Below are positions 1,492 through 40,964 of a DNA stretch of 40,964 nucleotides, in pieces (positions within the stretch are counted from its first letter, which is position 1; each line of letters opens with the position of its first letter). The position numbers and the translations under genes were made by a program. The DNA lies in IMG/VR virus record IMGVR_UViG_3300034121_001234, positions 1-40,964 of that record. One strand, given 5' to 3'. The notes beneath the pieces were generated by a model. That model was not told the DNA's origin. It did no database searches and was given only the letters and a program-made list of their open reading frames with translations. Source of the stretch: a virus.

Positions 1492-1500
1492 GGAAGTAAA

Positions 1501-3743: not shown

Positions 3744-3744
3744 A

Positions 3745-12519: not shown

Positions 12520-13137
12520 TTATAGGGCCTCTAGTAGTCTGATTGTTCCGGGGTTGACAAGAACACCATCATCATAGATGATGCCTTGAAGTGTTTCTAA
12601 GTCTCTGTAGTACTGGATAGTAGGTTTAATAACAGAACCTGCATGATACATAATTTCGCCAGCAACAACAGCGTTTGTTAAGCTAGGATAAAATTTAACA
12701 TTTCTATTTAAGTTTAGATGTGTAGTTACATCTTCAGTAATCATATAAATTTTTGAATGACCACTGAACTTAATAAAAGAACCTTTAGGTAGAAGTAATG
12801 CCCCGGCTTGAGCAAAGTTTACAAAAAGGGAAGTAGAGCCTACTATTGAAGTTGTTGTGAAAACAGTTGCGTCATTTGTAGCTTTAGTTTTTGTATTAAC
12901 AGAGTTTAACTGTGGCATAACCATTGACTTAGAAGCAGAAACACCTGTAACCATACCTACTAAAAGTTCTTCTTCATTGTCTTTAGTTTGGATTTGAAAG
13001 CTTAACTCCCAGCGTTGGGCACCTTGCGATACCCTCTGCTGTTTGAGATTTACTGTGTCAGCCGAAAAAATAGGCTCATTAGATTCTATGGTGAGAGGAG
13101 CCACAATTGGGCTCCCCTCGAAATAGTAGACTGTCAT
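12520..13137 (-). CDS. Distal/minor tail protein
   Basis: A 205-residue beta-rich protein immediately after the tape measure gene (TAATG overlap). The segment QGAQRWELSFQIQT (about residues 39-52) is typical of distal or minor tail proteins that follow tape measures in siphophages. The C-terminal third (TIQYYRDLETLQGIIYDDG) has no recognisable motif. By position it would be the first ring below the tail tube, Dit-like, but no defined family match can be claimed by eye. One base separates its stop from the start of the next gene. Confidence 0.65.
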   Translation of the reverse strand: MTVYYFEGSPIVAPLTIESNEPIFSADTVNLKQQRVSQGAQRWELSFQIQTKDNEEELLVGMVTGVSASKSMVMPQLNSVNTKTKATNDATVFTTTSIVGSTSLFVNFAQAGALLLPKGSFIKFSGHSKIYMITEDVTTHLNLNRNVKFYPSLTNAVVAGEIMYHAGSVIKPTIQYYRDLETLQGIIYDDGVLVNPGTIRLLEAL

Positions 13138-19100: not shown

Positions 19101-19976
19101 TAACCCTTTATCCAACTGTCCTACATAGTTTGTAACTGCATCTAAGAATACTACAGAAGCTTTAGAAATAGAAGGATTGATTTTTCCAAATTCTTCATTA
19201 ATAGCACTTCCTTGATTTAGCAAAGATCTTAGTACTACATCAGTGGTGATACCACCTTCTTCTGCTATTCTCCTAAGTTCACCTATAGTGACACCTAGTT
19301 CGTCAGCAATTGCTGTTGCAATACGAGGAGCTTGTTCTAAAACAGAGTTTAGTTCTTGCCCTCTTAAAGCGCCTGCACTCAAACCTTGACCTAGTTGGAA
19401 AATAGCTGCAGTTGTAGACTGAGCAGAACCACCAGAGATAGCGATTGCTTTTTGTACGTTTTCAGTTACTTCTAGTAGAGTACTAGTTTCTACTCCGGCA
19501 TCTCTTAACGCTAAGCCAAAACGATTAAAAGATTCTACAGAGCCATCTACAGAAGTGTAAGTTCTAGCAGAAATTTTTACTAGTTCTTCTTGAGTTAAAA
19601 TTAGATCATCAGTTCTGCCTGTGACCAAAGCTATTCTATTTTCTAGGTCATTAAACTTAGAAGTTATAGCAACAAAACCGGCACCTAAAGCACCACCTGT
19701 TAACGCTAAAGTTATATTTGTAGCTAAGTTTGAGAAACCTGAACTTAAACTACTAACTGATTTAGAGATTTCTCTATTTGTTTTATTCAAATCTGTTTTA
19801 AGAGATTTTATTTCTTGTGAAATTTTGTTACTATCAATGTTTTTTACACCGATATTAGAAATATTACTAGCTACTGCTTTAGACTCAACTTGTAGGGTTT
19901 TAAGTCCAAGTGATATCTTTTTAAGAGCAGATTCAATGTTACTTTCATTAGCTACAATATCAACTTCAATTGTCAT
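13137..19976 (-). CDS. Tape measure protein (2279 aa)
   Basis: The largest gene in the window. The N-terminus is a coiled-coil, followed by a tape-measure N-terminal domain at about residues 85-280, with typical FNDLENRIALVTGR, GSVESFNRFGLALRDAG and QLGQGLSAGALRGQELNSVLEQ segments. The middle (about 690-1180) holds many hydrophobic helices, likely the parts that form a channel in the host membrane. The C-terminal third is helical and includes a Gly-rich stretch, then GEYVVNAATTKRWLPFLE, a common end motif of tape measures. Using the usual 0.15 nm per residue, the tail would be about 340 nm, very long. AAGGAG lies upstream of the ATG. Several plus-strand ORFs opposite it are shadows. Confidence 0.95.
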   Translation of the reverse strand: MTIEVDIVANESNIESALKKISLGLKTLQVESKAVASNISNIGVKNIDSNKISQEIKSLKTDLNKTNREISKSVSSLSSGFSNLATNITLALTGGALGAGFVAITSKFNDLENRIALVTGRTDDLILTQEELVKISARTYTSVDGSVESFNRFGLALRDAGVETSTLLEVTENVQKAIAISGGSAQSTTAAIFQLGQGLSAGALRGQELNSVLEQAPRIATAIADELGVTIGELRRIAEEGGITTDVVLRSLLNQGSAINEEFGKINPSISKASVVFLDAVTNYVGQLDKGLRLSQTIASSVLKVSDSLNKAAIDLDLRMAEKIAGLNIVQTFKDMLLVSGGIFNVLGAIAGRIGDSLPKVILPVLNLLNELYLGFVAIPTLEFFSTLTRGFLDIRGNFLDFITLSDTVAGAIANVFTSETPQELRDNLDILAMAIENAGKKWFNVFNKMTTLVRQTNIFLLETGIYLGLVNQKLIMFRFDTFEDFNWLLRASNHLIKELYRNLLTLPIVLKVLTGLLILESYLIVLGKAFTNTFKEIQVVTNSYLDKTISSIRKFSTSVKKEFYNLYIYLVGNSVWPDTIEGIYDWSGKLEKNVLPIINNFVTKVKGSFRELYKFVKDISNRNTTLNFSEIFNFENSNFILAKQFISDLIVQVSNLSNQLKAGVLEKLKSFSSFNFSLDFDLKLKTATALSTLISLIKKVEVYLAVNFAKGIANLWLYLAENAPLLADILGAGIVVGLAELFGIKLYQQIRLLALGSLLAVILNEVSASIGELLVQEGFFTNLGNNFGELLGVIITSFLSNLPLILQALLDIVKGFAQGLLAEFGILGSLVSGLLNLAGTGGNILQTILFGSGIALLTGNFKSIMTVINVGLTLLLNRSIGGVGKAGILQYLLLGKGKLVIAGILAVIAVLNLIPGVFNDIGNSVSTFLTLGGIVSLLVFGPGGTVKGIIKSLDFVMNYIGLMSGLMAVNGPRFNLAGYLWPATGAIGLKARILAFFAWFRFQYYSTIGGGTLLAVFGNKLRQALVSFTSFYTSTMINLRSRSIAIGGPIGAIGNVLFGRVGRAAILATLILGIFATAATAGQDAASSGFGFGASALEYGLLGIMLLGVAGPRKLKAAVVGLVNFIKLQFRALVVGVGIEAAIAAAMGAGFKAGLLSIGVMLLRFIGGIFALLFSKVALVIAGIGILGLILFGKGNSLTEKWNNFKESVTNFFTDTTAGGRAARESIESILEPLRDSKLGNLKLSGSFKALDKVDLGGLNESQIGDMRASLKKSVSRLEELKQIYAEEGNLTRGERREANELLRSIDRTIGEAPEVGSRESQTNNISAILSSIDKMGFGQLPQNEGWFSSTPDLETATTAVTTGKTPLSFFIDLEGLRNTDPIIADLVETMSFAMSEGLAINPKIQRDLNEALQDLLVFKAPVGNKNTLISYLSDSAKALMSSSTGTLEERLNAVYAQRSAELKKIGEDYKNEVGFVAEKVSLEEAISRINSEKAKLGLEALTTEQKNLLTLRSTLELQRKLSDLTKMTVNVSNKTLPLFPAVGYATDESKAERERVLKEYEIFEKLYLSKNEELVSNVNTVLSDLGVNLSLDNFDLTKLPSFFANVEKVLAAEAAAAVSGNSAAALQQLEAARQAMMFQLIDYKTLLSQVVNIVPTDISFDQIFGSTLGTQNQIANLGKKLLDLNNQIGDEAFTTLPMAMKEGILAQKSSIVKQIVDLFRQVAIETRSIDYFTEGNALESQIETFFSSFSGNTLSPLPLTIMGPEARDNAVLAIEDIQKAYTDLQTDMSNGIKPDFQDSLGVLASKLGTTEIEFSSFTDRLEYARSLADNPISFGELIQLPREKLNSITILTTRLRALQIRMALLKAFGAITGQDIVVGLSAVAAQIDEVMSEIDVAVPDAPDTSPDSGGGAAAKTWWEGFTEALSSMDLSIDEKVLAGISSSAIDSLVSASAKYKAAQDAINKSTKDQVELRRQSLEIMRQERQLAINSLDNGTFGAAKAKASMMNSSIDESTLAYMNKAQLASKAAIEERIQSLVEERDVMTAGSAEQVRATFQLQSLNWALEGLQESAMMLPDAFTAMKDSFQSAIAAFLKGEVSFKSVLTSMLDTFTNSIIDSFAKTMTDKLFGNIFANMFGGGGGGGGGLLNLFKAASPVMEVATGGYISGPGGPTSDSIMAMLSNGEYVVNAATTKRWLPFLETLNSNDGRLPAFANGGSVGPSNPVAFKVSQKDNKNKQQQVFNINVTGDVSMQARKEIARMIPEITAGVNMTNRERGSR

Positions 19977-21245: not shown

Positions 21246-21824
21246 TTAGCTAGTAGAAGTAATGGTGAAAGGACCATAGAAATCTGACTGGATTGATAGA
21301 GCTACTGTAGCAGTAGAAGCGTCATCACGAGAAGGTGTGATCAGTAGTGATTCTACTTTACCTACGAAGTAGATAAGAGCGTTAGGGATAGGAGCAGCTA
21401 GAGTACCACCAATACTTGCAGTTAGAGCAGTAGTTAGTGCAGGAGGCTTAGCTGGTAGAAGGGCGAACTGGAAAACTTTAGCTACACCGTCAGCGACAGC
21501 GTCACCTAGTGTACCTGTAGCGGAGAAAGCTGCACCGTTCTTTGCCCAGAGTGAGGGAACAAAGTTAATTGAGAGTTCAAGGTCAGGAGCATCTGACTGA
21601 GCACCGATTGACTGGGTTTGTGCTTGTCCATAAACAGGGACCTTGACGATGTTAGCAGGAGTACCGAAAGCAGGCATGTCACGAATGTTGCTGACTTCTA
21701 CGAAGTTAGAAGCAGAAGCAAAGTTTGCTTTTAGGTTAGCTTCAGTTAGAGTAGCAGGTACTGCTGTACGAGAAATAGCTAGCGCAGAATACTGAGCAGC
21801 TGAAATAGAAGTAGGGTATGCCAT
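21246..21824 (-). CDS. Major tail tube protein, second tandem copy
   Basis: A 192-residue tail tube protein. Hallmarks are the conserved FGTPANIVKVPVYGQ start, QSIGAQSDAPDLELSINF, a LGDAVADGVAKVFQFALL strand-helix region and the closing ATVALSIQSDFYGPFT. It is a close paralogue of the adjacent upstream gene: the first 35 residues, the centre and the last 40 are almost identical, and differences are concentrated in two loops (about residues 36-45 and 93-140). It starts 12 bases after the first copy with AAGGAA before the ATG. Tube proteins polymerise into the hollow tail shaft around the tape measure. Confidence 0.88.
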   Translation of the reverse strand: MAYPTSISAAQYSALAISRTAVPATLTEANLKANFASASNFVEVSNIRDMPAFGTPANIVKVPVYGQAQTQSIGAQSDAPDLELSINFVPSLWAKNGAAFSATGTLGDAVADGVAKVFQFALLPAKPPALTTALTASIGGTLAAPIPNALIYFVGKVESLLITPSRDDASTATVALSIQSDFYGPFTITSTS

Positions 21825-21836
21825 ATTTATTATTCC

Positions 21837-22424
21837 TTATACGGTAAAGGGGCCATAGAAATCGGATTGAATCGATAGAGCTACCGTAGCAGTAGAAGCA
21901 TCATCACGAGAAGGTGTAATAAGTAGTGATTCCATTTTGCCTACAAAATAAATAAGAGCGTTAGGAACAGTACCAATACCACCAGCCAGCGCATTCAACG
22001 AAGCTGGTTTAGCTGGTAGAAGAGCGAACTGGAAAACTTTAGCTACACCGTCAGCAACAGCGTCGCCTAGAGTACCTGTGCCTGCCGCTGAAACTGAGGG
22101 GTTACCAAAAGTTGCATTGACTTTAGCCCAGTCATTAGCTACAAAGTTAATTGCTAGTTCAAGGTCAGGTGCGTCAGACTGAGCACCAATAGATTGAGTT
22201 TGAGCCTGCCCATAAACGGGAACCTTAACAATATTTGCAGGAGTACCAAAAGCTGGCATATCGCGAATATTCTTAATTTCTACGTAATCACCACGAGAGC
22301 CTGAAACTACTGAACCTGAAAAGTTTGCTTTTAGGTTAGCTTCGTTTAGTGTGGTAGGGACAGCAACTCTAGAGACAGCCAACGCAGAGTATTGCGCTGC
22401 TGAAATAGAGGTAGGATATGCCAT
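21837..22424 (-). CDS. Major tail tube protein, first tandem copy
   Basis: A 195-residue tail tube protein, paralogue of the gene immediately downstream, with the same start (MAYPTSISAAQYSALA) and the same C-terminal DASTATVALSIQSDFYGPF. Compared with the second copy it has a longer first variable loop (VVSGSRGDYVEI) and ends right after GPFTV. Both copies are intact with no stop or frameshift, so both are probably used. It follows the tail terminator gene closely. Confidence 0.88.
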   Translation of the reverse strand: MAYPTSISAAQYSALAVSRVAVPTTLNEANLKANFSGSVVSGSRGDYVEIKNIRDMPAFGTPANIVKVPVYGQAQTQSIGAQSDAPDLELAINFVANDWAKVNATFGNPSVSAAGTGTLGDAVADGVAKVFQFALLPAKPASLNALAGGIGTVPNALIYFVGKMESLLITPSRDDASTATVALSIQSDFYGPFTV

Positions 22425-23837: not shown

Positions 23838-24929
23838 TTAAGCGTGTAGAATTGGGAGAATACCTAGGTTTAGAGGATCCATAGTACGAGTCCATGAAGC
23901 CGCAGTACCTAGAGTAGAGTTAGTAGCAAAGTTGTTAGTAGCGCCAACCCAGTCGTAACCCATTGGATGAGCAACGAAGCCATAACGATACCAGATGTTG
24001 GTTGAACCACCACCAGCGTAGCTAGCAGGATTACGATCAACTTCAGTAGCAACTGGCATTGGGATTTCACGGAAAGCAACTGAACCGGGCTTTACTAGGA
24101 AAGTGGTCTTAGTTGATTGGTCGTTAACGTTACCTGAAGTACCGAGGTTACCCTGAGCAGCACGAGTTAGGACTAGACGGAACTTACCACCAAAGATAGT
24201 TGTAAACTCGATGTTACCATCACGTACACGATCTTGGTCGATTAGGTTAGCACCACGAAGGTCTGCTAGAACTTCAGGTGAAGTGATCATGTAGACGTAC
24301 TCGGGTTCGTAGTCTTTGTAGAACATACCCATTGCACGGAATAGACGCTCACCACGAGCAGCACCGATTTCTGAAGCATCTACTAGTTTACGAGCATCGC
24401 TTGTGCTTGTAGCGGCAGCACCGAAGGAACCAGCAGCGTTAATGTCGATGAAAGCACCGATAGAAGCTGAAGGAACAGTGTCAAAGTTTACAACGCCAGC
24501 ACCAATAGCAACTTCAGAAGCTGCAACGCCCTTCATGATTGAAAGAACAGCGTTATGCTCGTCTTGAGCGCGTGACTGAGCGAAGTTACGAGCAAAGAAA
24601 GCTAGGCCGTCCTGCTGTGAGATGATACGCTGTAGGTTGACTTGTTCTGCACCGATAGTACGAGCATTCTTTACATAGTTTGCAATATCGGTTGAGATAG
24701 TTGAGTAGCTGCCATCGTTAGCTACAGTTAGTGAAGCATTGTTGATAGTAGCTGAAAGGGGTTTGTACCAGCGTAGCTGACCAGCGAAACCTTCACCGTT
24801 AGGATCTAGTTCGGTTGAAGCTGCAACCATACCAGTTGAGTTGATACGCTTTTCTTCAGTCCAACGCTCTTCTGCATAAGCAGAAATAGCGACTGCTACG
24901 TTCTGGAAGTTTAGATGATTAATGGGCAT
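23838..24929 (-). CDS. Major capsid protein (HK97-fold)
   Basis: A 363-residue protein directly after a scaffold-like gene and before the connectors, the standard place of the major capsid protein. It has an N-terminal arm with AISAYAEERWTEEKRIN, a helical spine (QDGLAFFARNFAQSRAQDEHNAVLSIMKG, split here by family position) and a C-terminal half with EYVYMITSPEVLADLR and GFVAHPMGYDW typical of capsid P-domain style sequences in marine phages. No protease gene or cleavage site is evident. A ribosome site AAAGGT precedes the ATG. Confidence 0.88.
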   Translation of the reverse strand: MPINHLNFQNVAVAISAYAEERWTEEKRINSTGMVAASTELDPNGEGFAGQLRWYKPLSATINNASLTVANDGSYSTISTDIANYVKNARTIGAEQVNLQRIISQQDGLAFFARNFAQSRAQDEHNAVLSIMKGVAASEVAIGAGVVNFDTVPSASIGAFIDINAAGSFGAAATSTSDARKLVDASEIGAARGERLFRAMGMFYKDYEPEYVYMITSPEVLADLRGANLIDQDRVRDGNIEFTTIFGGKFRLVLTRAAQGNLGTSGNVNDQSTKTTFLVKPGSVAFREIPMPVATEVDRNPASYAGGGSTNIWYRYGFVAHPMGYDWVGATNNFATNSTLGTAASWTRTMDPLNLGILPILHA

Positions 24930-24960: not shown

Positions 24961-25641
24961 TTAAAAAGTCATTGTTCCTAGTTTACCTGATTCTGCTAGT
25001 GATAGAAGTTCTTCTGTACTCATTCCACTTAGTGTTTTAGGACGAGTAACAGTAGTTGAACCTTTGTTGCTATTAGAACCAGCACCTGAGTTCTCTTTTT
25101 GTTTAAAGAGGAAATCCTTGTTAGGATCCTTAGCGAAAGCCTTTAGATAGTCATAAATACTAGCACCAGACTTATGCACCCATGAACCATCTTGATCTTG
25201 TACAAGTTCAGGGAGAATTGTTTTAAACGCAGTTTCACGTGCGAAGTCATTACGGAAGTCGAGAGAACCTAAGTGCTTCTCTAGTTCACGATCTCGAGTT
25301 AGCGAAGTCAACCTTTCCTGCAGGATCCGGTTATTTTCTTCAAGCTCAACATTCTTCAGCTTTGAAGCTTCATAATGTTTTCCTTCATCTTCGAGTTGTT
25401 TGCGTTGTTTTTCTTGAGCGTCTGATTTTAGCTTAGCATTTTCACGTACTAGCTCTTCAGATTTCTTATAAGCTTTGTCAACGTTAGCCTTCATTTGCTT
25501 AAGCTCGTCAGCCACTAATTGTTTTAATAGAGCTTGATGCTCTTCCGCAAGAGAGGCTTTCTTTTGAGAAAGGTCTTGGGAGTTAGTGTCATTATTATCG
25601 TCTTCGTTATTATTGACATTATCGTCGTTTAGTTCAGCCAT
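24961..25641 (-). CDS. Capsid scaffolding protein
   Basis: A 226-residue protein with an Asn/Asp-rich N-terminus, a long Lys/Glu-rich coiled coil (about 30-115) and a C-terminal tail that ends in TEELLSLAESGKLGTMTF, a capsid-binding helix pattern. Size, charge and position just before the major capsid gene are those of scaffolding proteins of siphophages. No protease domain is fused, so it is probably recycled or removed by another means. Confidence 0.85.
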   Translation of the reverse strand: MAELNDDNVNNNEDDNNDTNSQDLSQKKASLAEEHQALLKQLVADELKQMKANVDKAYKKSEELVRENAKLKSDAQEKQRKQLEDEGKHYEASKLKNVELEENNRILQERLTSLTRDRELEKHLGSLDFRNDFARETAFKTILPELVQDQDGSWVHKSGASIYDYLKAFAKDPNKDFLFKQKENSGAGSNSNKGSTTVTRPKTLSGMSTEELLSLAESGKLGTMTF

Positions 25642-25715: not shown

Positions 25716-25789
25716 TGGCGAGGGACTAGAGGGTCGAACTCTAACTTTGACTTTTGGAGAGTCATGTGCTGCCATTACACTAATCCGAC
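25716..25789 (-). tRNA. tRNA-Trp (anticodon CCA), acceptor stem imperfect
   Basis: The minus strand folds as a tRNA of 74 nt including an encoded CCA end (25718-25716). D stem GTGT/GCAC, anticodon stem TGACT/AGTCA with loop CTCCAAA (anticodon CCA at 25757-25755), T stem TAGAG/CTCTA with loop TTCGACC, and discriminator G73 are all standard; G73 is the bacterial tRNA-Trp identity base. The acceptor stem is poor: bases 1-7 GTCGGAT against GTCCCTC leave mismatches at pairs 2-71 and 3-70. It may be a decayed gene or one that works despite the mismatches. Confidence 0.75.
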
Positions 25790-26335: not shown

Positions 26336-26572
26336 TTACTCTCCTGAAATTGCGTTTAACTGAGCTAAGCCAAGAAGAAAGTATGCTGTTTCTCGAGTCA
26401 TGTTACCTGAACGGACTAACATCTCGTCGTCTTTAGTAACAATTAGCATTAACAGTTCTTGAACTTCCTCTTTCATTGAAACTAGTTCTTCAATCACTTC
26501 TTCAATTTCGCTACGATCGTTTTCTGTGACAATGGGTTGCTTATTAAAAAGGTTTACAATCTTATTAGTCAT
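26336..26572 (-). CDS. Small unknown acidic protein (78 aa)
   Basis: A 78-residue acidic helical protein with a Glu-rich helix (RSEIEEVIEELVSMKEEVQELLMLI) in the centre. I chose the ATG at 26572 because GGAG lies six bases upstream; a GTG at 26584 is possible but lies inside the homing endonuclease end without a ribosome site. It overlaps that gene by 8 bases. No membrane segment or family motif is seen. About 100 purine- and pyrimidine-rich bases without a gene follow it (26234-26335). Confidence 0.65.
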   Translation of the reverse strand: MTNKIVNLFNKQPIVTENDRSEIEEVIEELVSMKEEVQELLMLIVTKDDEMLVRSGNMTRETAYFLLGLAQLNAISGE

Positions 26573-27047
26573 ATAGTACTCCACTGAACTCTCCGTGCAA
26601 TTCTCTTGCAGCTTCGAGATAAATCTTTGTTGCTTCTTCTAAGGTATCAAATCGACCTAGGTAAAATCTTTTATTATTTTTCCTAATTCTTACTCTAAAT
26701 TTTTGGTACTCTTTATCAAAATAGATACCTTTAGAGTTATATTTATTATTACACTGAGCTGCCTTGTTCATACAATTTTCAGAGTTAGTACACAGTCTTA
26801 AATTGTCTAAGCTATTGTTTATCTTATTTCTATCTATGTGATCTATTTGAAGTTTATCTGGAATTTTTCCTTTAAACATTTCATAAATTATTCTATGTAC
26901 CATAAAAGACTTTTTATTTAAAATAACTTGTTTATAGCCTGAGCTATTAGTAGTACCCACTTGTTTACCAGCTACTTTTTTATTACAGTAATCCTCTAAC
27001 CAATACAGATCATTATTTTTATAATAAAAAAATTTATTCCAATCCAT
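26565..27047 (-). CDS. HNH homing endonuclease with AP2 DNA-binding domain
   Basis: A 160-residue protein with an HNH domain (MVHRIIYEMF, then QIDHIDRNKINNSLDNLRLCT, residues about 49-88) followed by an AP2-type DNA-binding region (GIYFDKEYQKFRVRIRK and YLGRFDTLEEATKIY). This is the standard free-standing phage HNH-AP2 endonuclease. The gene is conspicuously AT-rich compared with its neighbours and has only a weak ribosome site, so it is probably a selfish element inserted after the MuF-RNA polymerase gene. It would cut intronless copies of a neighbouring locus and spread by repair. Confidence 0.9.
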   Translation of the reverse strand: MDWNKFFYYKNNDLYWLEDYCNKKVAGKQVGTTNSSGYKQVILNKKSFMVHRIIYEMFKGKIPDKLQIDHIDRNKINNSLDNLRLCTNSENCMNKAAQCNNKYNSKGIYFDKEYQKFRVRIRKNNKRFYLGRFDTLEEATKIYLEAARELHGEFSGVLYD

Positions 27048-27063
27048 CTATTGTCTTTCTATA

Positions 27064-30000
27064 TTAAGGCCCAAAACCATAGTAATTGTAACCATCTTTG
27101 AGAGGAGCAGTAATTTCTTTTGGTTGAAATCCAGGATTAAAGTATCCTAGTCCTTCCATCTCTTTTAAGTACTTAAAGTATAGCTCATCTGGAAAACCCT
27201 CTTCTCTAAGTGCATCAAGAGTTGCTTTTATTTTGGGAAATTCTGCAAAACGTTTGTATATTTCTCTTTGTTCTACTAACAGCAATTCAATCTCATTAAT
27301 GTTTAATGCGGCAGCATCATGAATAGTAGAGGTAGGAACACCAGCCCTACGACCCCAAAGATGCATTTGTCTTACAACACTAGCGTCGTCAGCATGCGTG
27401 CCATTAACGCCTAGTCCAAGTCTTACGTCTCCTACCTGACCCTTACCAAGTAACTTGCCATCTTCAGCAGACATCTGATAAATGTTACGAATATAACGTT
27501 TACTCTGAGGATCATAGAAACGAATTTCTTGCTGAATTTTAGGTCGATAGTCTTGGTATAGTTTTTTTCCATCGAAGGTTACCCAAGGAATTCGTACTTT
27601 ACCAGTAGATCGAGCATAATCTTGTCCAATTCTTTTCCAAACGTCAATATAGGTATCAGTAACAGGAGCACGTTCTGCTAGCTTCTCAGACATAATCGCT
27701 GCAATACGTTTGAAATGATCAGGGCCAACTTGAGGGCCTCTACGGTTAGAGTACTTGTAAACAAAGTCAGCAAGATCTGGATGGATCTCAGCAGCCTCTG
27801 CTAGTAGAGAGTCGCTCACAGCTTTGTCAGGAGTGTTAGCAATCTCAAGGACTTCTTTCTTTAAAGCTAAGAGGTCAGCTTGAGTATCTACTGCTCCTAG
27901 AGCTTTAGCTTCTTTAATTTTAACATCAATTTGCTTAGTCAAAGCAAGATACTCAGCTCTCGTTGTAACAAGAACATCTTGCTTACGAAGAACTTTAGAC
28001 AACTCAAGAGCAACTCGTGCTGCTTGTCCTGCCTTTCCCGCGCCATACAAACTAATCATAACTTGATACTTTGCAGCTTTGTTAATGTCTTCCCAAGTTA
28101 GATCTAGGTTCAACTCTTCCATTAGAGCTTGAAAACGAGGATCGGAAACAGTATCTTGAGCAACTAAGTCATAGATACGATTCTTTTTAACGGACTGAAT
28201 AACATTACTGGTCACAGCAGCACCTCGGTCACCTGTAGCGAGAGCAATCATCTGTAGGCCGCTAGCACTAGCATCAGCTTCTCCAAGTAACTTAGACTTG
28301 TAGAGCTTGAGTTTAGCAGGAGTAAAGTCTCCACCTGTAGCTTGGTACAAACGATAGTACTCTAGACTGAAACGAGCTATCTTAGCAATTTCTGCAGCGT
28401 CTGTAGCTTGGATTAGAGGATTCTCAAGAAACTCCCTAATTCTTCTTTCTCTCTGCGTCTTGTAAGACAGTAGTCTTCCTACTTCTAGGATAGCCTGTTC
28501 ATTTCGCTTAAAGATCGACAAACGACCAGCTTCAGTTAGAGCTTCAGTTCCCGGACCAATAACGCTAGCCATTTGGATACGTAGTTGGTGTAGCCCTTGA
28601 GGTGTCATTGCAACTCCGTGAGCAGTGTTTAGGAAAGGACGAACTACTTCACCCCCTGTTGGAGTTAGATAGCCATTATAATATACCCTGCCACGACCGT
28701 CAATACGGGCATGTACGGTGAAAGCCTTCCCATTAGCACGGTAATATCGGATAGTCTCCATAAGGCCGTAACCTTGATCTCCTCGCCTGACAATTTCTTC
28801 ACGAAAGCCGTTAATTGAGTCATAGTATTCCGCTTTACCCCTCTGGTCTTTAAATCTAACTAAGTCGTCCATGAAGCTAGAGAACTCGTCGTCTACTTCA
28901 TAACGAAAGGACATGGTGTGGTTCAACATGTCTGCAAAATCACCATCTATTTGTTTTTCATCAAACTTTGAGAACGCTGAACGAGTAACAACAGGAACTC
29001 CTGTGTCACGACCTCTAGCGTCTACATAAGTCTTTTTGCCCGGAGTAACATAGTACTTGTTCTCTGGTCGATCTACTCCTAGACGATTAGACAACTCTAT
29101 TCTTCTGTTGTAGTCTTGTAGTTTCAACATAGTAGGGTCGATTACTTGCACTTCTCTTGAGACTGTGTCTTTCCAGTTGCCTGAAGGACGTCCAGTGTCT
29201 AGGTCTGTTGTAGCTCGACGAGTAACACCTCTAGAGTTAACTCTAATTAGACCTTGTTCCCGAAATAACTCAAGAATCTTAGAGCCTTGCTCATGATAGT
29301 CTTCTAAAGAAGAACCAAAGATAGGGTAGACAGGATTCCAAGTTGACTTAAGACTTTTACCTAGACTAATAGCTAGAGAGTCATAGTCTGTTGTAACACC
29401 TTCAGCTACTACAGCCATAAGGTTAGACATAGAACGAGTTACTTGCCCTTCAATAGGACCAAGTGCCTTTTCAATAAGCAGTTTCTCTAGTGTAAGACTT
29501 CTTCTTAGTCTATAAAAAAACTCTAGGTCTACAATGGAACGATACTCTTCACGAATGGTCTTGGTAATAAAATCAATAAAACCTTCTTCCTTGATTTCTA
29601 GGAAAAGAGTTAACCAGTTTGGAGTCAACTTCTTTTTAAGGTACTTTTTAAAAATCTTCAGCCACTTGTCAGGAGACTTACCATAACGGGTATAGAAGCC
29701 AATTGGATCGTCTTTATAGAAAGTAGAACGAATAGAGCGTTTAATAAAACTTTCCTTCAGCTGCTCGTATAATCCTTCTGGTTTTTTATTGGGACCAAAG
29801 AAGTAAGCTGTCCAAGGAGCTTTACCACGATAGTAAACACTTCTTGCAAGTTTGATACCTTCAGTAGAAGCCCAGTCTTGAGCATAACGTTCATACTCTA
29901 ACTTTTCAGCATGTAGCTTACTAATAGGCAAACTCTGCCCTTGGATCATTACAGCAGGTTCATTAGGGTCACCTTTAAAACCAAGAAACAACTCAGAACG

Positions 30001-31587
30001 AGAACGTGACCTTCTATCTAACAGTCTAGATACGTTAACTGTAGAGAAGTTCATTTCTGCCCTTACTGTAGCCACAAAGTTCTCCCAAGGAACAGGATTC
30101 TTTTGATAACGTTCAAAAAGAATACGTAAGTTCTCTACTACTACTGTTTGTTGGTTTACTGAGACACGATCTTCTAACTGATTTGTGAAGTCTTCAATAA
30201 ACTGTTTTTGATTACGATCTAGCAACTTAGACTCTCGCATGTAGTCAATACGTTCTCTTAGTAGGGTAAAGTCTGGGTCATAGTAAAGAGTAGAACGAGT
30301 CTCTCCTGTAAAAGGGTCAAAGGTAGAGTTACGAGGGTTGAACTCATTGTTAGCTTGAGAACGAACACCACGCTTACCACCTAGAGTAGTACCACGAAAG
30401 TCGGTTAAACTTATAGCCGAGTTGCTGTTTACAGAGTCTGAGACGATTAAGTCTAACAAGTCTTTTTGGACTTGCTTTGATCGTACAATTTGAAAAGGGC
30501 GATCTACAGTAAGGAAACTAGCTTGAGGGTCTTTTCCTCTTTGTGTTACAGGACTGAAGAAAGTTAGTAGATTGTCTTTTACTCTTACTGCACTAATATC
30601 TAGTGGTCGCCCTAGAGTACTGAAGAAATCTGTTAGACTCAAGGCTCCTCTTTCAAACAAAGAAACTTTTTCTTCTGAGCCTAACTTGTCTAGCTTAGTT
30701 GCCATAGGTTGACGAGTTAACCATTCTGTGAAGGTTTCCTTAATAGGTAAAGAACCAGAGAGTAAACCGTCTGCGACTGAGCCTAGCTTCTCTTTGTTGA
30801 GTCGATCAGAAGTAGTAGCCAGCATTTCTTTCTTGCTACGTAGTACAGGAACTAGAACAGAACGACAACGCCAGTGCAAAGGTGGACGAACCTTTAGGTT
30901 GTCAGCAGATTGAAAGAGGTTGTCATAGCGAGAGCATAACTCACTGGTCCTAGAGTCTAGAATAGCTGTAAAGACATAGCCAGAATAAACTTCTTTGTTA
31001 GCCTCTAGCACTTTCTGTCTTACAATAGAGTCAGCTTGAGTAAAGTGTGTAGTAACTAGTGTTTTAGCTTGGTTTTCGGTCAACTTAGTTGTAGACAAGA
31101 CTTTCTTTATTACTTCTTCTTCAACTTCGCCTGACGCAATACCTTTACGAATGATAGCACTGATCCTAGTTAGTTCGGAACCACCTATGTTTTCGAAACT
31201 CTTAGTCATAGTAGGATAACCTTTTGTTTCATTAAAAAGCTTAAGAGGTTGACCAGTAATCTCTCTGGATAACTGGCCACGATTTACAGACTGAACGCTA
31301 TACCAGTCTCCAACAGAACGTCTTAGGTTGTTAGTTTGAAAGTCTAGCTCTGCTCCGATAAAGTCAGAGACTGAGTTAGCACCAAGAGAGTAAAGCTCTT
31401 GAACGTGACGAGCTACTTCACGTTCTAAGCCTAGTCGATCTTTTAAGTCTTTACCAAGAAGTTTTTGAAGAAAACCACGATGTCGATTTGAGGCTTTTTC
31501 TATTAATAAGTTAGCTACCTCCTGATAACGACGCATTGTTAGCATGTGTTCGATTTGTCTATCGAAAAGTTCTTGAGTTAGACTCAT
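27064..31587 (-). CDS. MuF-type minor head protein fused to a T7-like single-subunit RNA polymerase
   Basis: A single uninterrupted 1507-residue frame. Residues about 110-250 are a Mu F-like head morphogenesis domain, with ILDSRTSELCSRYDNLF (about 208-224) and PPLHWRCRSVLVP (235-247). The C-terminal 600 residues carry the T7-type RNA polymerase core: RIDGRGRVYYNGYL (about 961-974; T7 DWRGRVY), EADASASGLQM with Asp1105 (T7 Asp537), KYQVMISLYG with Lys1173 and Tyr1181 (T7 Lys631/Tyr639, same spacing of eight), and TIHDAA with His1423-Asp1424 (T7 His811-Asp812). Residues 250-950 are mostly unassigned and may hold a diverged promoter-binding N-terminal domain. A ribosome site AGGAA precedes ATG. 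It sits in the MuF slot upstream of scaffold and capsid genes, so it is probably carried in the virion and may transcribe early genes after injection. Loss of T7 Arg627 (Asn here) is a difference. Confidence 0.93.
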   Translation of the reverse strand: MSLTQELFDRQIEHMLTMRRYQEVANLLIEKASNRHRGFLQKLLGKDLKDRLGLEREVARHVQELYSLGANSVSDFIGAELDFQTNNLRRSVGDWYSVQSVNRGQLSREITGQPLKLFNETKGYPTMTKSFENIGGSELTRISAIIRKGIASGEVEEEVIKKVLSTTKLTENQAKTLVTTHFTQADSIVRQKVLEANKEVYSGYVFTAILDSRTSELCSRYDNLFQSADNLKVRPPLHWRCRSVLVPVLRSKKEMLATTSDRLNKEKLGSVADGLLSGSLPIKETFTEWLTRQPMATKLDKLGSEEKVSLFERGALSLTDFFSTLGRPLDISAVRVKDNLLTFFSPVTQRGKDPQASFLTVDRPFQIVRSKQVQKDLLDLIVSDSVNSNSAISLTDFRGTTLGGKRGVRSQANNEFNPRNSTFDPFTGETRSTLYYDPDFTLLRERIDYMRESKLLDRNQKQFIEDFTNQLEDRVSVNQQTVVVENLRILFERYQKNPVPWENFVATVRAEMNFSTVNVSRLLDRRSRSRSELFLGFKGDPNEPAVMIQGQSLPISKLHAEKLEYERYAQDWASTEGIKLARSVYYRGKAPWTAYFFGPNKKPEGLYEQLKESFIKRSIRSTFYKDDPIGFYTRYGKSPDKWLKIFKKYLKKKLTPNWLTLFLEIKEEGFIDFITKTIREEYRSIVDLEFFYRLRRSLTLEKLLIEKALGPIEGQVTRSMSNLMAVVAEGVTTDYDSLAISLGKSLKSTWNPVYPIFGSSLEDYHEQGSKILELFREQGLIRVNSRGVTRRATTDLDTGRPSGNWKDTVSREVQVIDPTMLKLQDYNRRIELSNRLGVDRPENKYYVTPGKKTYVDARGRDTGVPVVTRSAFSKFDEKQIDGDFADMLNHTMSFRYEVDDEFSSFMDDLVRFKDQRGKAEYYDSINGFREEIVRRGDQGYGLMETIRYYRANGKAFTVHARIDGRGRVYYNGYLTPTGGEVVRPFLNTAHGVAMTPQGLHQLRIQMASVIGPGTEALTEAGRLSIFKRNEQAILEVGRLLSYKTQRERRIREFLENPLIQATDAAEIAKIARFSLEYYRLYQATGGDFTPAKLKLYKSKLLGEADASASGLQMIALATGDRGAAVTSNVIQSVKKNRIYDLVAQDTVSDPRFQALMEELNLDLTWEDINKAAKYQVMISLYGAGKAGQAARVALELSKVLRKQDVLVTTRAEYLALTKQIDVKIKEAKALGAVDTQADLLALKKEVLEIANTPDKAVSDSLLAEAAEIHPDLADFVYKYSNRRGPQVGPDHFKRIAAIMSEKLAERAPVTDTYIDVWKRIGQDYARSTGKVRIPWVTFDGKKLYQDYRPKIQQEIRFYDPQSKRYIRNIYQMSAEDGKLLGKGQVGDVRLGLGVNGTHADDASVVRQMHLWGRRAGVPTSTIHDAAALNINEIELLLVEQREIYKRFAEFPKIKATLDALREEGFPDELYFKYLKEMEGLGYFNPGFQPKEITAPLKDGYNYYGFGP

Positions 31588-35871: not shown

Positions 35872-36065
35872 TAAGCAGACTTTCCGGGTAATTGTAAGCA
35901 AGTAGCTTGAATAAAGAAAGTTTGTGGTGAGGTGATAATAGACTTAACAACATCTAATTCTTGTTCACAAGCCAACTCAGTAACAAAGACTTTTTCTGTG
36001 TTGTAGAATACTTCACAAGAGCGAACATCATTTGTAGCACAAACCAGTAACATAGCTAAAAACAT
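35871..36065 (-). CDS. Small Cys-containing exported-type protein (64 aa)
   Basis: A 64-residue protein with a hydrophobic start (MFLAMLLVCA), then four Cys in total, two of which (residues about 17 and 33) lie in the middle and one near the end. Similar short proteins with hydrophobic starts and scattered Cys accompany portal genes in some phages. It may be periplasmic or membrane-attached, but the signal is short and uncertain. TAATG overlaps on both sides tie it to the portal and the basic protein gene. Confidence 0.6.
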   Translation of the reverse strand: MFLAMLLVCATNDVRSCEVFYNTEKVFVTELACEQELDVVKSIITSPQTFFIQATCLQLPGKSA

Positions 36066-37630
36066 TATACTGACTCCTCAATACTCATACCTGAGTTATC
36101 TTGAATAAGAGGATCTTGACCGATCTCTTCCATACCTAGTGTGTCGTCATAATCAGAAGGAAGAATGTCGTGTTGTTTAGCTACAGACAACCAAACAGAA
36201 CGAGGAATTAACCGATTCTGATACCATTCGGTAACTAACCGTGCCCACTCAGAACCTAGAGGCGTAGGGTTAAAGTCTGCTGACAGCTTGAACTCTAGTT
36301 CTTCAACTTCGAGGTCGCGGCCATAACGCCAGCGTAACATCAACTTAATAACTTCACCAAGAGTAGAAGACAGCTTGTTGTTTAACAACCCTAGTTGTGC
36401 AGTAAGACTAGAGTTTTTGATTTCTAGCGCAATACCAGACTGGTCACCTTCAGGAGCAAGAATACGGACACCCATTCTTGACATCTCTGCTAGGCTGAAC
36501 TCAATAGCTCGATCCATGTCTACAAGCGCATCTGTTGGAGTCTTGAAAGCATCGATTTTGTCGTTCGACCCTAGTTTGATCCAAGAGCCTAGTCCTGAGT
36601 TAACTACAGCTTGAAAGTCTTCTGTACTCATGTCAGAAAAGATTACAGGAGTAAAGGTAGAAGCACCATACATCAAGTGGTTACGACGAGAGACCTTGTT
36701 GTACAGAGCAATTTCCTTGTCGATAAGAGGAGTCAACATAGGAGTCTCTAGTGACACTTCACCGTTTAACGGGAAGATAGGCAACTGGTTCATAGGCTCG
36801 CCCCACATCATTGGAGTAATGACTTCTCCGTCTGCAATCCAGTGGTCGTTACTAAACAGCTCTGTACCAAAGATTTGAGTCATTCGAAGATCACCGTTAA
36901 TCAAATCTACGGTAGCTTCGCCTTCTTTCTTGTAGTACTGTACTCTATAAACACCAGCTTCGTCTAGGTAGTGATCTACTGCAACGATGTCTAGGTTTGG
37001 ATGCCACTCTGAGTCCTTGTAAGTTCTGCCAATGTAACGGAAAACAATACGAGTAAGAGTAGGACGACCTGTTGATCGGTCAATACCTGTTTGCCAGTTA
37101 ATAACGTCTTCTGCTCGCCAAAGTACAGGGTAAGGAGCAATCATCTTCTTTTGGTCGGGGTCTAGTTCGGTGTAGTTAGGTACTACAGGGAAGTCAACAG
37201 AAACCCAACCACGAGAAGTAGAAAGCTCTTCCCAGATAGCAGCGTCGAGGAAAGAAACAATTGGACGACCGTCTTCAGTGAAACGATTACGGATCCAGTT
37301 TTCAGCTTCTTCGGGTACTCCCTCTGGGAAGTTAATTTCAGGAGGCTTACGTAGTAACCCACCAGTAAGAATTTTAGCATACTGAGAGGTTAGACCGGGC
37401 AGTTCTGCCTCTGCCACATACCAACGATACTGTTCTTGAGACATACGAGGACTAAAGGGTACGAGTAGGTTTGTGTAGTTTACACTGTCGATGTAACGGT
37501 CATGTTCTTTAGAGTACAGCTCTCCATTCAGTACAGCACGGCAACGTTTCCAGATACGAACCATTGATTCATATTCGTAGCTTGGTGTTCCAACACCAGA
37601 CTTTGAAGTAAGGGTAGGTATTTGTGTCAT
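36065..37630 (-). CDS. Portal protein (DUF4055-like)
   Basis: A 521-residue protein of portal type. Seen are the N-terminal YESMVRIWKRCRAVLNG, then LTGGLLRKPPEINFPEG, a stem region with IFPLNGEVSLETPMLTPLIDKEIALYNKVSRRNHLMYG and the late LEIKNSSLTAQLGLLNNKL helix, a style of DUF4055 portal proteins. The order portal, MuF, scaffold, capsid supports it, although fibre genes lie in between. AAGGA six bases upstream of ATG. The dodecameric portal ring is the DNA channel and the anchor for terminase and connectors. Confidence 0.88.
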   Translation of the reverse strand: MTQIPTLTSKSGVGTPSYEYESMVRIWKRCRAVLNGELYSKEHDRYIDSVNYTNLLVPFSPRMSQEQYRWYVAEAELPGLTSQYAKILTGGLLRKPPEINFPEGVPEEAENWIRNRFTEDGRPIVSFLDAAIWEELSTSRGWVSVDFPVVPNYTELDPDQKKMIAPYPVLWRAEDVINWQTGIDRSTGRPTLTRIVFRYIGRTYKDSEWHPNLDIVAVDHYLDEAGVYRVQYYKKEGEATVDLINGDLRMTQIFGTELFSNDHWIADGEVITPMMWGEPMNQLPIFPLNGEVSLETPMLTPLIDKEIALYNKVSRRNHLMYGASTFTPVIFSDMSTEDFQAVVNSGLGSWIKLGSNDKIDAFKTPTDALVDMDRAIEFSLAEMSRMGVRILAPEGDQSGIALEIKNSSLTAQLGLLNNKLSSTLGEVIKLMLRWRYGRDLEVEELEFKLSADFNPTPLGSEWARLVTEWYQNRLIPRSVWLSVAKQHDILPSDYDDTLGMEEIGQDPLIQDNSGMSIEESV

Positions 37631-37633
37631 AGT

Positions 37634-37942
37634 TTATCCTTCTAGCTCTGTCTCAACAAGAGTCAACCCCATTAGGGCTAAGGCTTCTAAGCCAGAGACG
37701 CCAACTATTACAGTTAGCTTATCTGGTGTTGCGGTAATAGAGTCTGATTGTGTATAGCCTTCTAGCACACCTGAAGCCACTCTGTAGAGAGTAGTTCCGT
37801 CTGTCCAGACAGGAGCAGTTTCAACAACGTTCTCGTCAGTAAAACCGGGTGGGCAAGCGATAGTTACAACTTCCATGCTATAGGCCAAGCACATGGCAAG
37901 CTGATTGCTGTCTGCAACGGGTTCTGCGACTGTGATACTCAT
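37634..37942 (-). CDS. Unknown protein (102 aa)
   Basis: A 102-residue beta-rich acidic protein upstream of the portal. It contains two Cys in its N-terminal third and PVWTDGTTLYRVASG and VIVGVSGLEALALMGLTLVE segments. There is no signal peptide, membrane helix or recognisable domain. It ends four bases before the portal start and lies at the edge of a compositional shift: its base use is like the main body, whereas the next genes upstream are GC-rich. Possibly a virion or fibre accessory protein. Confidence 0.6.
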   Translation of the reverse strand: MSITVAEPVADSNQLAMCLAYSMEVVTIACPPGFTDENVVETAPVWTDGTTLYRVASGVLEGYTQSDSITATPDKLTVIVGVSGLEALALMGLTLVETELEG

Positions 37943-37947
37943 GTGGC

Positions 37948-38148
37948 TTACGCAGCTACAACAGGAAGGCTGGCGTTATAAGCAGCACGGGCAGCAGCGA
38001 TACCCTCTTCAGGTGTGGCTACGGAATACTGGGCCATATACGACAGTGCAGCCATGTTCATTACCATGTCCACATAGCCCTCATCTGTGGTGATTTGGAC
38101 GGTCGGTTGAACGTAGGCAGGTACGGTGGTGACGGTGTAATCAGTCAT
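37948..38148 (-). CDS. Small unknown protein (66 aa)
   Basis: A 66-residue protein beginning MTDYTVTTVPAYVQPTVQ and ending in an Ala-rich helix (EEGIAAARAAYNASL). I place the start at ATG 38148, which has AGGAG seven bases upstream and overlaps the preceding small gene by 8 bases; an upstream ATG at 38205 adds a basic, unlikely extension. It has the higher GC content of the right end. Such short proteins often follow fibre genes; function unknown. Confidence 0.65.
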   Translation of the reverse strand: MTDYTVTTVPAYVQPTVQITTDEGYVDMVMNMAALSYMAQYSVATPEEGIAAARAAYNASLPVVAA

Positions 38149-38299
38149 TTGCAGGCTCCTTGGCTTGAGTGGCTTCTTCCAACTTGGCGAGAAGCGTTGC
38201 GGCATCTTTTACGGCACGAAGGCCGAGGGCTTTTACGCCAGCGTCCAGCAGCCCAGCGAGGGCTTGGATTTCGTGGTCGGTGAGGGTGAGGTTGATCAT
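38141..38299 (-). CDS. Small helical protein (52 aa)
   Basis: A 52-residue helical protein starting MINLTLTDHEIQALAGLLDA, of a type common in phages: an LTLT start, a helical hairpin, and a Lys/Ala/Glu-rich tail (LLAKLEEATQAKEPAND). It lies between the fibre-like gene and the next short gene, with which it overlaps by 8 bases. No function is known for this group. Confidence 0.68.
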   Translation of the reverse strand: MINLTLTDHEIQALAGLLDAGVKALGLRAVKDAATLLAKLEEATQAKEPAND

Positions 38300-38300
38300 G

Positions 38301-39179
38301 TTATACTCCGATTACAGTCCAGTTTGCTCCGTTGTAGTTAACGAGAGCATAAGCCGCGCCACCGCCTGCAACCGTAGTGCCGATTGTGGGGGTCAGTGCG
38401 TTCGTCACGCGGGCGATCATGCCGACTAGCGGTGTTGCGGGAAGGGTTGCAACGGTGAGGGCTGTCACAACTTGGACAGAACCAGTGGTGTCAAACGTAA
38501 GGCGATTCAAGTTGTTTGAGCGGATTGAGAAGCTATGGTTACTCTCTGTTCCGATATAGTTGTTTACACCACCAAAATTATACCAGACCCCAGTCACGCC
38601 AGACCTAATATTATAGATACCTCCGCTTACTGATCTCAAATCTCCAGATGCAGTGACTTCAACACGCGTGGTTCCGTCCGTCTGGAGCGCCAGCGCCCGC
38701 GCTGTCCCGGTGCCAAGCTTTTCCGTGCCAATCGTCAGGACGTTCGTTGCCCACTTCATCACCCCACGCTCATAGTTTGATACGTCTGTATAGCTGTTGT
38801 ACAGGTTGAAGGCTTGGGCGTTCACGCCGTTGCGTTGGCCGAGGGTGTTGGCTGCGTCGCGGAGGATAGCAAGGTCGGTCGGCGATGCAAAGTTGTTCGT
38901 CGATGTGAATTGGAGGCTTCCTGATGTGCCACCAATATTGATAGACCCAGAAGAATGAGCCCTAAACCCAAGTCCAACGTCGACAACATCAGTAAATCCC
39001 GCCGCACGGGAATTCAGAATACCATCCTTTGTCACAAGAAACTTACTCACCCCACCAACCTGCAAGTTTATCAGCAGGGAGCCAGAAGCAGAGGCAGTGT
39101 CTGTGACGTTCATCTTTACAGCGGTGAAGGTAGTGCCGCTGGCGTTCCAAGTGTCAGCGAGGTCGTAGATATAAGCCAT
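38301..39179 (-). CDS. Fibre-like structural protein
   Basis: A 292-residue Gly/Ser/Thr-rich beta protein starting MAYIYDLADTWNASGTTFTA, with SGSLLINLQVGGVSKFLV and NVLTIGTEKLGTGTARALALQTDG repeats of the kind found in fibre and capsid-decoration proteins of environmental phages. The C-terminus has VATLPATPLVGMIARVTNA and a NGANWTVIG end, a typical fibre closing motif. GGAGGG, inside the end of the upstream gene, precedes the ATG. High GC relative to most of the window. Confidence 0.7.
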   Translation of the reverse strand: MAYIYDLADTWNASGTTFTAVKMNVTDTASASGSLLINLQVGGVSKFLVTKDGILNSRAAGFTDVVDVGLGFRAHSSGSINIGGTSGSLQFTSTNNFASPTDLAILRDAANTLGQRNGVNAQAFNLYNSYTDVSNYERGVMKWATNVLTIGTEKLGTGTARALALQTDGTTRVEVTASGDLRSVSGGIYNIRSGVTGVWYNFGGVNNYIGTESNHSFSIRSNNLNRLTFDTTGSVQVVTALTVATLPATPLVGMIARVTNALTPTIGTTVAGGGAAYALVNYNGANWTVIGV

Positions 39180-39181
39180 GA

Positions 39182-40964
39182 TTAGGCCCTCCGTTCTATA
39201 GTTTGGTTGAAGCGGTCCAGCACCGCAGTGTTGTCGCGGGCGAAGATGGTGGTGGAGATGTTGTTGGCAATGTTGATGCCCGTCTTGTCACCAACATAAA
39301 TCTCAGTGGAGGTTATCTGTGTTGCAGTTAAGTTAGCCCCGAAGCGGACGATCAGGCTGTAGATTTGGCCGTTGAAGGGGAATGTTGTTCCACCACGACG
39401 ACCGATGTAGAGGGGGTAGGCAAGGAAGTTTCCTGTGCCGCTATTGGTAGTAGTGGACTCTTGCGTTGAGGGTGTTGCCCCATTAACTCGTAGGGTAATT
39501 TCAGATGCGGGGGTTAAACCTGCTATATCGCTTGTAAATGCAATTACGTTAGTGATGGGTGCTCCGTAACCGACTGCGTTTTTTACTCCAGAAGTAGTAC
39601 CACTGAGAGCATATGAGTAATTTGGAGTAGTTGTTGCACCCCCAGCAGAACCATCAACAAAAACTCCAAAGGAACCGGTAGATAACCCAGAGTTTACTGA
39701 AAACTCCATGACTGTTTGTCCACCGTTTGCCAGCTTCCGCACCCCAGCAAAGACCTGAGCCTTGTCAATTCCCGGTGTGATGGTGGGGGTAACAAGGAAG
39801 TCATCTACACCGTCGAAGGACAGATACGACAGGGACTGCACCCCGGCTTCGGTCACGTCATACTGTGTGGTGACGCGCTGATAGGCTGTGGCGGTGGAGC
39901 CTGTTTCGAGTTGAGCGCCCCAGATGTAGGTGCCGGATGTGCCATTTCCTGTGTAGTTGCCCCCACGGGGAGCGGTGCCACTATCCATCAGCCACAGGAA
40001 AGAGCCGCCTGATGCCGCTGCCAGAGTGCTGGTTATCGTGATGCGGTAAAAGCCGTTCGCTGCTGCTGTGATAGTCGCCGCCGTGTACGTCCCGCCAGTT
40101 ACAGTACCGGCCTGAAGGTCAAAGTTTGCGTGGTTCGTGGACAGGGAGGTGGACCACAGCAACTGGACATACCGCGCGCCGTTTGCCTGCACATAGTACG
40201 AGGCCGTGTGCGCTGTAGCGGTTGGAGTTGTCGGGAACACTTGTCCGACGCCAATCTGCGTGGTTGCAGCGGCAGATACGATACGATCTGCGGTCGTTGT
40301 GCCATCGGGGGCCAAGGTAGTGTTTGCCACAACAGTGCAGCTATCTTTAGACCAAACTGCGTTGCTGAAATCCTCGCTCCACAAGATTTGGTTCCTCCGA
40401 CCACCCAGAGGCACGATACCATAAGTAGGGCGGGAAGCAGTAGTGGCTTGGGTGGCGTGGAAGCCGGGGAGTTCGCGGACGGAGACGGATGTGACTGAGA
40501 TTGCACCGACCGATGTGGTCGAAACGGCGAGACTAAAGTTGCCGCTTGCTACGTTAGCTTGAACAAGTGCGGTCTTTACGCCAGTACCGGAAAAAGTGGC
40601 TACCGTAGACCGCGGGTTGGAAGTCGAGCTTAGGATCACAGTGTAGTTGGCAAGGGTTGTTGAGGTAACGTTAATGGTCACCTGATACCAATTCCCCAGC
40701 ACAAAAGAAGACGTGTTGGAGTAAGCAAGATCAGTCCCACCAGCTCCGGTCTTTTCAGCAGTAAACGCACCGCCTGTTGAAGAAAACACGTCCCAAGCCA
40801 GACCGGAATTTGTCCACGATGATGCGGTGAAATCGCTCCCCAGCACCAGACCCTTAGACTTATCCAGCACCAGAGCAACAGACTGCCCCGGAGTGGTCAC
40901 AGGGGTAGTACCTGCGGTGTCGGTGAACATAGTGGCGGTCGGGAAGCGTTCGACGACTTCGGTG
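39182..40964 (-). CDS. Lectin-like fibre/appendage protein, 5' end cut by window edge
   Basis: The frame stays open upstream of the ATG at 40930 to the window edge (reading VVERFPTATMFTDTAG), and that ATG lies within a motif FPTATMFTDTAGTTPV that is normally internal, so I treat the gene as partial. The visible part has about 590 residues. Two lectin-like blocks can be seen: one with ILWSEDFSNAVWSKDS and GVGQVFPTTP, then YIWGAQLETGSTATAYQRV, and a second with LSYLSFDGVDDFLVTPT and PFNGQIYSLIVRF, as in concanavalin A or LamG domains of phage appendages. Probably binds cell-surface glycans. GC-rich and poor in CTAG. Confidence 0.8.
   Translation of the reverse strand, partial: TEVVERFPTATMFTDTAGTTPVTTPGQSVALVLDKSKGLVLGSDFTASSWTNSGLAWDVFSSTGGAFTAEKTGAGGTDLAYSNTSSFVLGNWYQVTINVTSTTLANYTVILSSTSNPRSTVATFSGTGVKTALVQANVASGNFSLAVSTTSVGAISVTSVSVRELPGFHATQATTASRPTYGIVPLGGRRNQILWSEDFSNAVWSKDSCTVVANTTLAPDGTTTADRIVSAAATTQIGVGQVFPTTPTATAHTASYYVQANGARYVQLLWSTSLSTNHANFDLQAGTVTGGTYTAATITAAANGFYRITITSTLAAASGGSFLWLMDSGTAPRGGNYTGNGTSGTYIWGAQLETGSTATAYQRVTTQYDVTEAGVQSLSYLSFDGVDDFLVTPTITPGIDKAQVFAGVRKLANGGQTVMEFSVNSGLSTGSFGVFVDGSAGGATTTPNYSYALSGTTSGVKNAVGYGAPITNVIAFTSDIAGLTPASEITLRVNGATPSTQESTTTNSGTGNFLAYPLYIGRRGGTTFPFNGQIYSLIVRFGANLTATQITSTEIYVGDKTGINIANNISTTIFARDNTAVLDRFNQTIERRA

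Follow-up and report, generated by a model that had tools for sequence, protein, structure and literature searches.

A minor head protein fused to a T7-type RNA polymerase: a candidate virion polymerase of long-tailed phages

Why would a phage encode an RNA polymerase in the same polypeptide as one of its head proteins? The question is raised by an uncultured virus record, IMG/VR IMGVR_UViG_3300034121_001234 (the whole stretch analysed, 40,964 bases, is referred to here as the window), in which one minus-strand gene (27064-31587) encodes a protein of 1507 residues and roughly 170 kDa. By sequence, motifs, and fold, this protein is a MuF-type minor head protein joined to a T7-like single-subunit RNA polymerase (RNAP). 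We consider it probable, from genome comparison, that it is a head protein with a built-on virion RNAP which would be ejected with the DNA, transcribe from a dedicated early promoter, and then hand over to a second phage RNAP (RNAP2). With somewhat less confidence, we favour the view that infection by a large group of long-tailed phages, most of them uncultured, begins with such a head-protein-borne T7-type RNAP, using a promoter class of its own (start directly after TATAAT, often with a hairpin at the 5' terminus of the mRNA), followed by a second T7-type RNAP with a faster-changing promoter.

One frame, two protein families

The fusion frame runs for 1507 codons without a stop codon. Two independent libraries, Pfam and PHROG, agree on its composition, bearing out the central claim of a first-pass annotation of this DNA, namely that a single unbroken frame joins a MuF-type head domain to a T7-type RNAP; the strand of the gene was a point absent from that annotation. 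The N-terminal head-morphogenesis region (residues 4-329; 30601-31578, on the minus strand, as are the other parts of the fusion gene and the portal, scaffold, capsid, and tape measure genes below) matches PHROG 241 (E 7.5e-47) and encloses the Phage_Mu_F core (residues 142-245; 30853-31164; PF04233, E 1.7e-8, above the curated cut-off), with the PPLHWRC signature at residues 235-241, where it had been placed. The T7-like polymerase region occupies residues 761-1507 (27067-29307) and is identified by Pfam RNA_pol (PF00940; residues 1054-1441, E 1.3e-9, above the curated cut-off), by PHROG 414 RNA polymerase (residues 952-1196, E 1.3e-20), and by Foldseek matches to T7 RNAP. Between the two lies a linker (residues 331-760; 29308-30597), delimited by its conservation profile and alignable also in EBPR siphovirus 1; a block at about residues 390-550 is well conserved, being kept even in that phage, and matches no known family.

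The same architecture recurs widely. Of 377 relatives confirmed in IMG/VR by a degenerate scan, the best 80 were retained, and all 42 homologues that were translated (41 environmental sequences and the cultured phage DSS3_VP1) are unbroken, with YGxGP as the C-terminus of nearly all. In the cultured roseophages DSS3_VP1 and DSS3_PM1 (Naomviridae), the protein has a counterpart over its full length at 42% identity, whose annotation goes no further than minor head protein-like or head morphogenesis protein; that of DSS3_VP1 is QGH74596, of about 165 kDa. Because 41 further environmental sequences and the genome of a cultured phage carry the frame intact, a sequencing or assembly artefact, or a chance joining of two genes, is excluded as the origin of the fusion, and the probability left to it is negligible; what favours it is confined to the right contig end beyond 37630, which looks foreign, and nothing of the kind concerns the fusion gene itself. 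No prophage copies were found in a pattern-limited scan of genome contigs.

Synthesis of dU-containing DNA was considered as a general cause of the fusion and rejected, the YfbR family (which includes the dTMP phosphatase of dU-DNA synthesis) occurring in only 3 of 21 records (DSS3_VP1, G015, and G033), a count weakened by the partial state of some records. The trait shared by the fusion family is thus unlikely to be dU in the DNA.

Catalytic residues and fold of the polymerase half

An alignment of 43 fusion sequences, with identity down to 42%, was used to follow individual residues. The MuF signature residues P235, P236, H238, C241, and R242 are invariant, as are the polymerase residues D963, R967, D1105, K1173, M1177, Y1181, G1182, H1423, and D1424. 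These fall in the DxxGR motif (residues 963-967; 28687-28701; G966 kept in 42 of the 43), in motif A with its catalytic Asp1105 (28273-28275), in motif B from Lys1173 to Tyr1181 (28045-28071), and in motif C with His1423-Asp1424 (27316-27321). The correspondence proposed in the first-pass annotation is thus upheld: Asp1105, Lys1173, Tyr1181, and Asp1424 sit in motifs matching those of T7 Asp537, Lys631, Tyr639, and Asp812, and the Lys-Tyr spacing of 8 is identical to that of T7.

Structure prediction, a check proposed in the first-pass annotation, was carried out for residues 330-1507 with AlphaFold and gave a model whose polymerase part shows the T7 RNAP fold, at a moderate confidence (mean predicted local distance difference test score 73.8, predicted template modelling score 0.64). 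When compared with the Protein Data Bank using Foldseek, this model matched T7 RNAP at an E of about 1e-19 and a template modelling score, by target, of about 0.5; mitochondrial RNAPs were also matched. Among viral models, the top match was a protein of 1463 residues sharing 44% identity, whose length points to the DSS3_VP1-type homologue, followed by T7-like RNAPs, with N4-type virion RNAPs lower (E about 1e-12 to 1e-9).

One alternative sees in the polymerase half a structural remnant that has lost catalysis. It draws on the deep divergence from T7 RNAP (phmmer E 0.027) and on the loss of the equivalent of T7 Arg627, a motif B feature of T7-like RNAPs: that position (Lys631 minus 4) holds N, S, Q, or A across the 43 sequences. 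EBPR siphovirus 1 has an Arg there, Lys1170 (Lys1173 minus 3) is kept in 41 of the 43, and the Arg627 equivalent is an accessory feature rather than part of the catalytic core. Against a dead remnant stand the invariance of the catalytic residues in all 43 sequences and the ratios of nonsynonymous to synonymous substitution rates (dN/dS) calculated against three relatives, which are 0.05-0.15 where computable (0.05-0.06 for the polymerase, about 0.07-0.15 for the linker), values that are rough since dS is near saturation. As far as these ratios can be read, purifying selection acts on the head, linker, and polymerase parts alike.

Group I introns provide a further argument on the same side. 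Matches to Rfam RF00028 lie inside motif B, around the Lys1173-Tyr1181 codons, in EBPR siphovirus 1 (E 1.4e-8, below the gathering score), G034 (E 2.8e-21), and G024 (E 2.4e-26); the three introns are located at L025:14840-15066, L259:4080-4346, and L260:1878-2107. Homing introns prefer conserved, essential sites, and their presence at motif B therefore fits an active enzyme. Taken with the residues and substitution ratios, they make a dead remnant very improbable, and we infer that the polymerase half is catalytically active. The motif B interruption of EBPR siphovirus 1 contains a gene for an HNH endonuclease.

A second polymerase and two promoter-like motifs in the relatives

A second, canonical T7-like RNAP, encoded as a free protein, was found in 19 of the 22 records scanned, and was not found in the partial records G001, G002, and G019. 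At G034:7322-9337, the free RNAP gene gives two matches within one long frame, perhaps through an in-frame insertion. Two repeats stand out in the intergenic DNA of DSS3_VP1, one early and one late. The early motif has the form A6-GTGAGAAAA-N7-ATCTATAAT, ends in a perfect TATAAT, and is also present twice in G006 and at two sites in DSS3_PM1, with DSS3_VP1 sites at record positions 35795 and 36242; it was not found in EBPR siphovirus 1. Searching IMG/VR with GTGAGAAAA-N7-ATCTATAAT returned 115 stretches, and the fusion polymerase is held by 21 of the 33 motif-bearing records longer than 20 kb and by 13 of the 14 of at least 46 kb.

Across the lineage, the early motif (at most 3 mismatches) occurs in 22 of 22 records, including G015, which has no fusion match, with 42 hits as opposed to 1 for the reversed pattern, a comparison to be read knowing that 18 motif positions were set by the search pattern and that this pattern also selected about half of the 22 records. 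Records chosen by the fusion protein alone carry it in 8 of 8 cases, G006, one of the eight, having contributed to the derivation of the motif. Each of the 19 records that have RNAP2 shows an early site (at most 1 mismatch) on the RNAP2 strand, about 1.6 to 17 kb upstream of that gene. The late motif, AGGGNRCGYTAAAG, yields 70 hits compared to 1 for the control, 69 of the 70 in the direction of the genes, and is present in 13 of 23 records, other subclades having none or other repeats. It resembles T3/T7-type promoters and precedes structural and other later genes in DSS3_VP1; in the relatives, motifs of the late class stand before middle and late genes. We infer that the late motif is read by RNAP2 and that the early motif, lying ahead of RNAP2, is read by an enzyme that is there from entry.

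The question is then whether that enzyme could be the RNAP of the host. Host sigma-70 RNAP might read the early promoters, with the fused polymerase entering alongside the DNA mainly to pull the genome in by transcribing it, or acting later. The perfect TATAAT suits such a reading, and many siphoviruses use host RNAP for their early genes. Yet the early sites have no -35 box, their -35 score being below that of shuffles (2.25 vs 2.97), and a sigma-70 consensus scan did not flag those of DSS3_VP1; a separate upstream half-site is conserved. Moreover, TATAAT is followed directly by a purine at 209 of 210 sites (overlapping loci counted), and at 51 of 123 distinct sites, against 3.0 expected, this next base opens a perfect stem of at least 5 bp, a placement unsuited to a start 7 nt downstream. 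Stem sequences vary (GATAC, GATATA, GAACT, AGAAGA, GGAAA, and others), so that base pairing rather than sequence is conserved; a large subclade lacks the hairpin. We read this as transcription beginning directly after TATAAT, which would give a 5'-terminal RNA hairpin, unlike sigma-70 transcription; a DNA hairpin or an operator is possible. On balance, early transcription by the host enzyme is unlikely.

The preferred sequence of events would thus begin in the capsid. The MuF half would dock the fusion protein at the portal inside the head, and for this reason a few copies could be packaged per particle with no need for a signal of their own. When the phage infects, the protein would exit with the DNA through the tail, and its T7-like polymerase would transcribe from the early motif, starting at the following purine. 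As the motif lies upstream of the RNAP2 block in the relatives, RNAP2 would be made, and would in turn read its own promoters before the middle and late genes. Packaging, ejection, enzymatic activity, and the pairing of motif with polymerase are all predictions drawn from genome comparison. The earlier proposal that an injected polymerase initiates early transcription is accordingly supported over the alternatives, and fits the genome context, the presence of RNAP2, and the dedicated early motif in relatives.

An alternative for the virion itself is that it retains the MuF half alone, the polymerase half being removed by cleavage or having its role in the cell at a late stage of infection. Proteolysis of head proteins can accompany assembly, and a linker divides the two halves; on the other hand, a free RNAP already serves transcription in the cell, and the fusion has been retained across very divergent genomes. 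We consider this alternative improbable.

Several observations weigh against an injected, head-borne polymerase. The tail is long and narrow, and the enzyme would have to unfold or be threaded through it. For the head part, an AlphaFold model of residues 1-620 found no match among solved structures, and the polymerase model is itself of moderate confidence and lacks the Arg627 equivalent. The early motif ends in what is also the host -10 consensus, making a role for the host conceivable, and its counts are in part shaped by how the motif and records were chosen. RNAP2 was not found in three partial records, and neither the early nor the late motif was found in the window, where the fusion and the late gene block are the sole components of this scheme; the early motif is lacking because homology with close relatives ends at 37630, and in G002 the motif lies about 1.1 kb past the corresponding point.

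Known virion polymerases and the genomic neighbourhood

Polymerases carried in the virion have precedents in N4-like phages, some jumbo phages, and P23-45. Like the N4 virion RNAP (Schitoviridae gp50), the fusion contains a single-subunit polymerase of the T7 superfamily, its carriage in the virion being proposed here, and is accompanied in relatives by a second, free T7-like RNAP and by hairpins at early promoters. The two differ in that gp50 is a protein of about 3500 residues from a short-tailed phage, with the polymerase in mid-protein and no MuF domain reported, whereas the fusion has 1507 residues, a C-terminal polymerase, and a long-tailed genome. The hairpins differ as well, those of N4 promoters being single-stranded and upstream of the start (PMC12633501) and those of the fusion relatives following TATAAT. 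A profile of the fusion gave no match to N4 vRNAP, a weak test given its single-sequence template. Membership in the N4 type was rejected on architecture (length, C-terminal polymerase, tape measure protein) and on Foldseek, which places T7-like RNAPs first.

Among long-tailed phages, the nearest functional parallel is Thermus phage P23-45, which has a virion RNAP fused to a structural protein, a second non-virion RNAP, and two promoter classes (PMC10770324). Its virion enzyme is a two-barrel, cellular-type RNAP on the tail tape measure protein; here a T7-type fold is joined to a MuF partner, and assignment to the P23-45 type was rejected on these grounds. With a second phage RNAP and distinct classes of promoter-like motifs in the relatives, the genome arrangement fits a cascade of the N4 or P23-45 type, in which a head-fused RNAP would be injected, early genes including RNAP2 transcribed, and late genes then expressed. 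RNAP2, the early promoters, the cultured relatives, and the P23-45 precedent had all been missed by the first-pass annotation.

MuF head domains bearing a C-terminal cargo enzyme are described for effector and toxin fusions in PMC5512222 and PMC5576092. In its passages on injected phage proteins, the former, a survey from 2017, gives N4-type RNAPs in N4-like phages only and lists other MuF fusions; these passages contain no MuF-RNAP fusion. No published description of such a fusion was found in open papers, a coverage that leaves out the founding Naomviridae paper, so an earlier mention is possible. If the proposal holds, the fusion of a T7-type enzyme to a head protein would represent a further route to a virion polymerase, one in which the chain itself provides for packaging; it would also pose the question of how a folded enzyme gets through a long tail. 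DSS3_VP1 and DSS3_PM1, phages of the marine roseobacter strain DSS-3, make the fusion directly testable, both having the full-length homologue, RNAP2, and the early motif, and DSS3_VP1 both motif classes. A promoter of this kind, conserved in its upstream half-site and fixed in its start, could also serve as a new tool promoter.

In the window, the fusion gene lies between the portal gene upstream (36065-37630; PHROG 145, E 1.4e-43), from which it is separated by small putative fibre genes, and the genes for a putative scaffold protein (24961-25641; PHROG 206, E 5.9e-10) and the major capsid protein (23838-24929; PHROG 247, E 2.7e-25) downstream. The gene map of DSS3_VP1 likewise shows the homologue close to head genes of these kinds. 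Its product is the sole MuF protein in 18 of 18 records searched, the window record among them. Assignment as a MuF minor head protein therefore rests on the PF04233 match, the PPxHxxCR signature, its being the sole MuF protein, and these neighbours, and assignment as a T7-like RNAP on DxxGR, motifs A, B, and C with their catalytic Asp, Lys, Tyr, and Asp, and the fold. A tail tape measure protein (13137-19976; PHROG 339, E 3.2e-68) together with a lambda J-like tip protein indicates a long-tailed virion.

An HNH/AP2 endonuclease gene, possibly encoding a homing endonuclease, is situated immediately downstream of the fusion (26565-27047), and a tRNA-Trp gene (CCA anticodon) is found amid the head genes (25716-25789); in DSS3_VP1, a tRNA-Asn adjoins the fusion gene. 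Two adjacent putative tail proteins of 192 and 195 amino acids (21246-22424) are very similar and represent a tandem duplication. In 37631-40964, GC content, about 0.40-0.45 before, climbs to 0.46-0.60, and the close relatives G001-G003 are homologous exactly as far as the portal gene start (37630); the segment is a foreign module or else the end of a chimeric contig. At the opposite end, on the plus strand (415-4539), genes for a glutamine amidotransferase-like protein, a COOH.NH2 ligase (amidoligase) family protein, and a RimK-like ATP-grasp ligase form a cluster that resembles a peptide or protein modification cassette.
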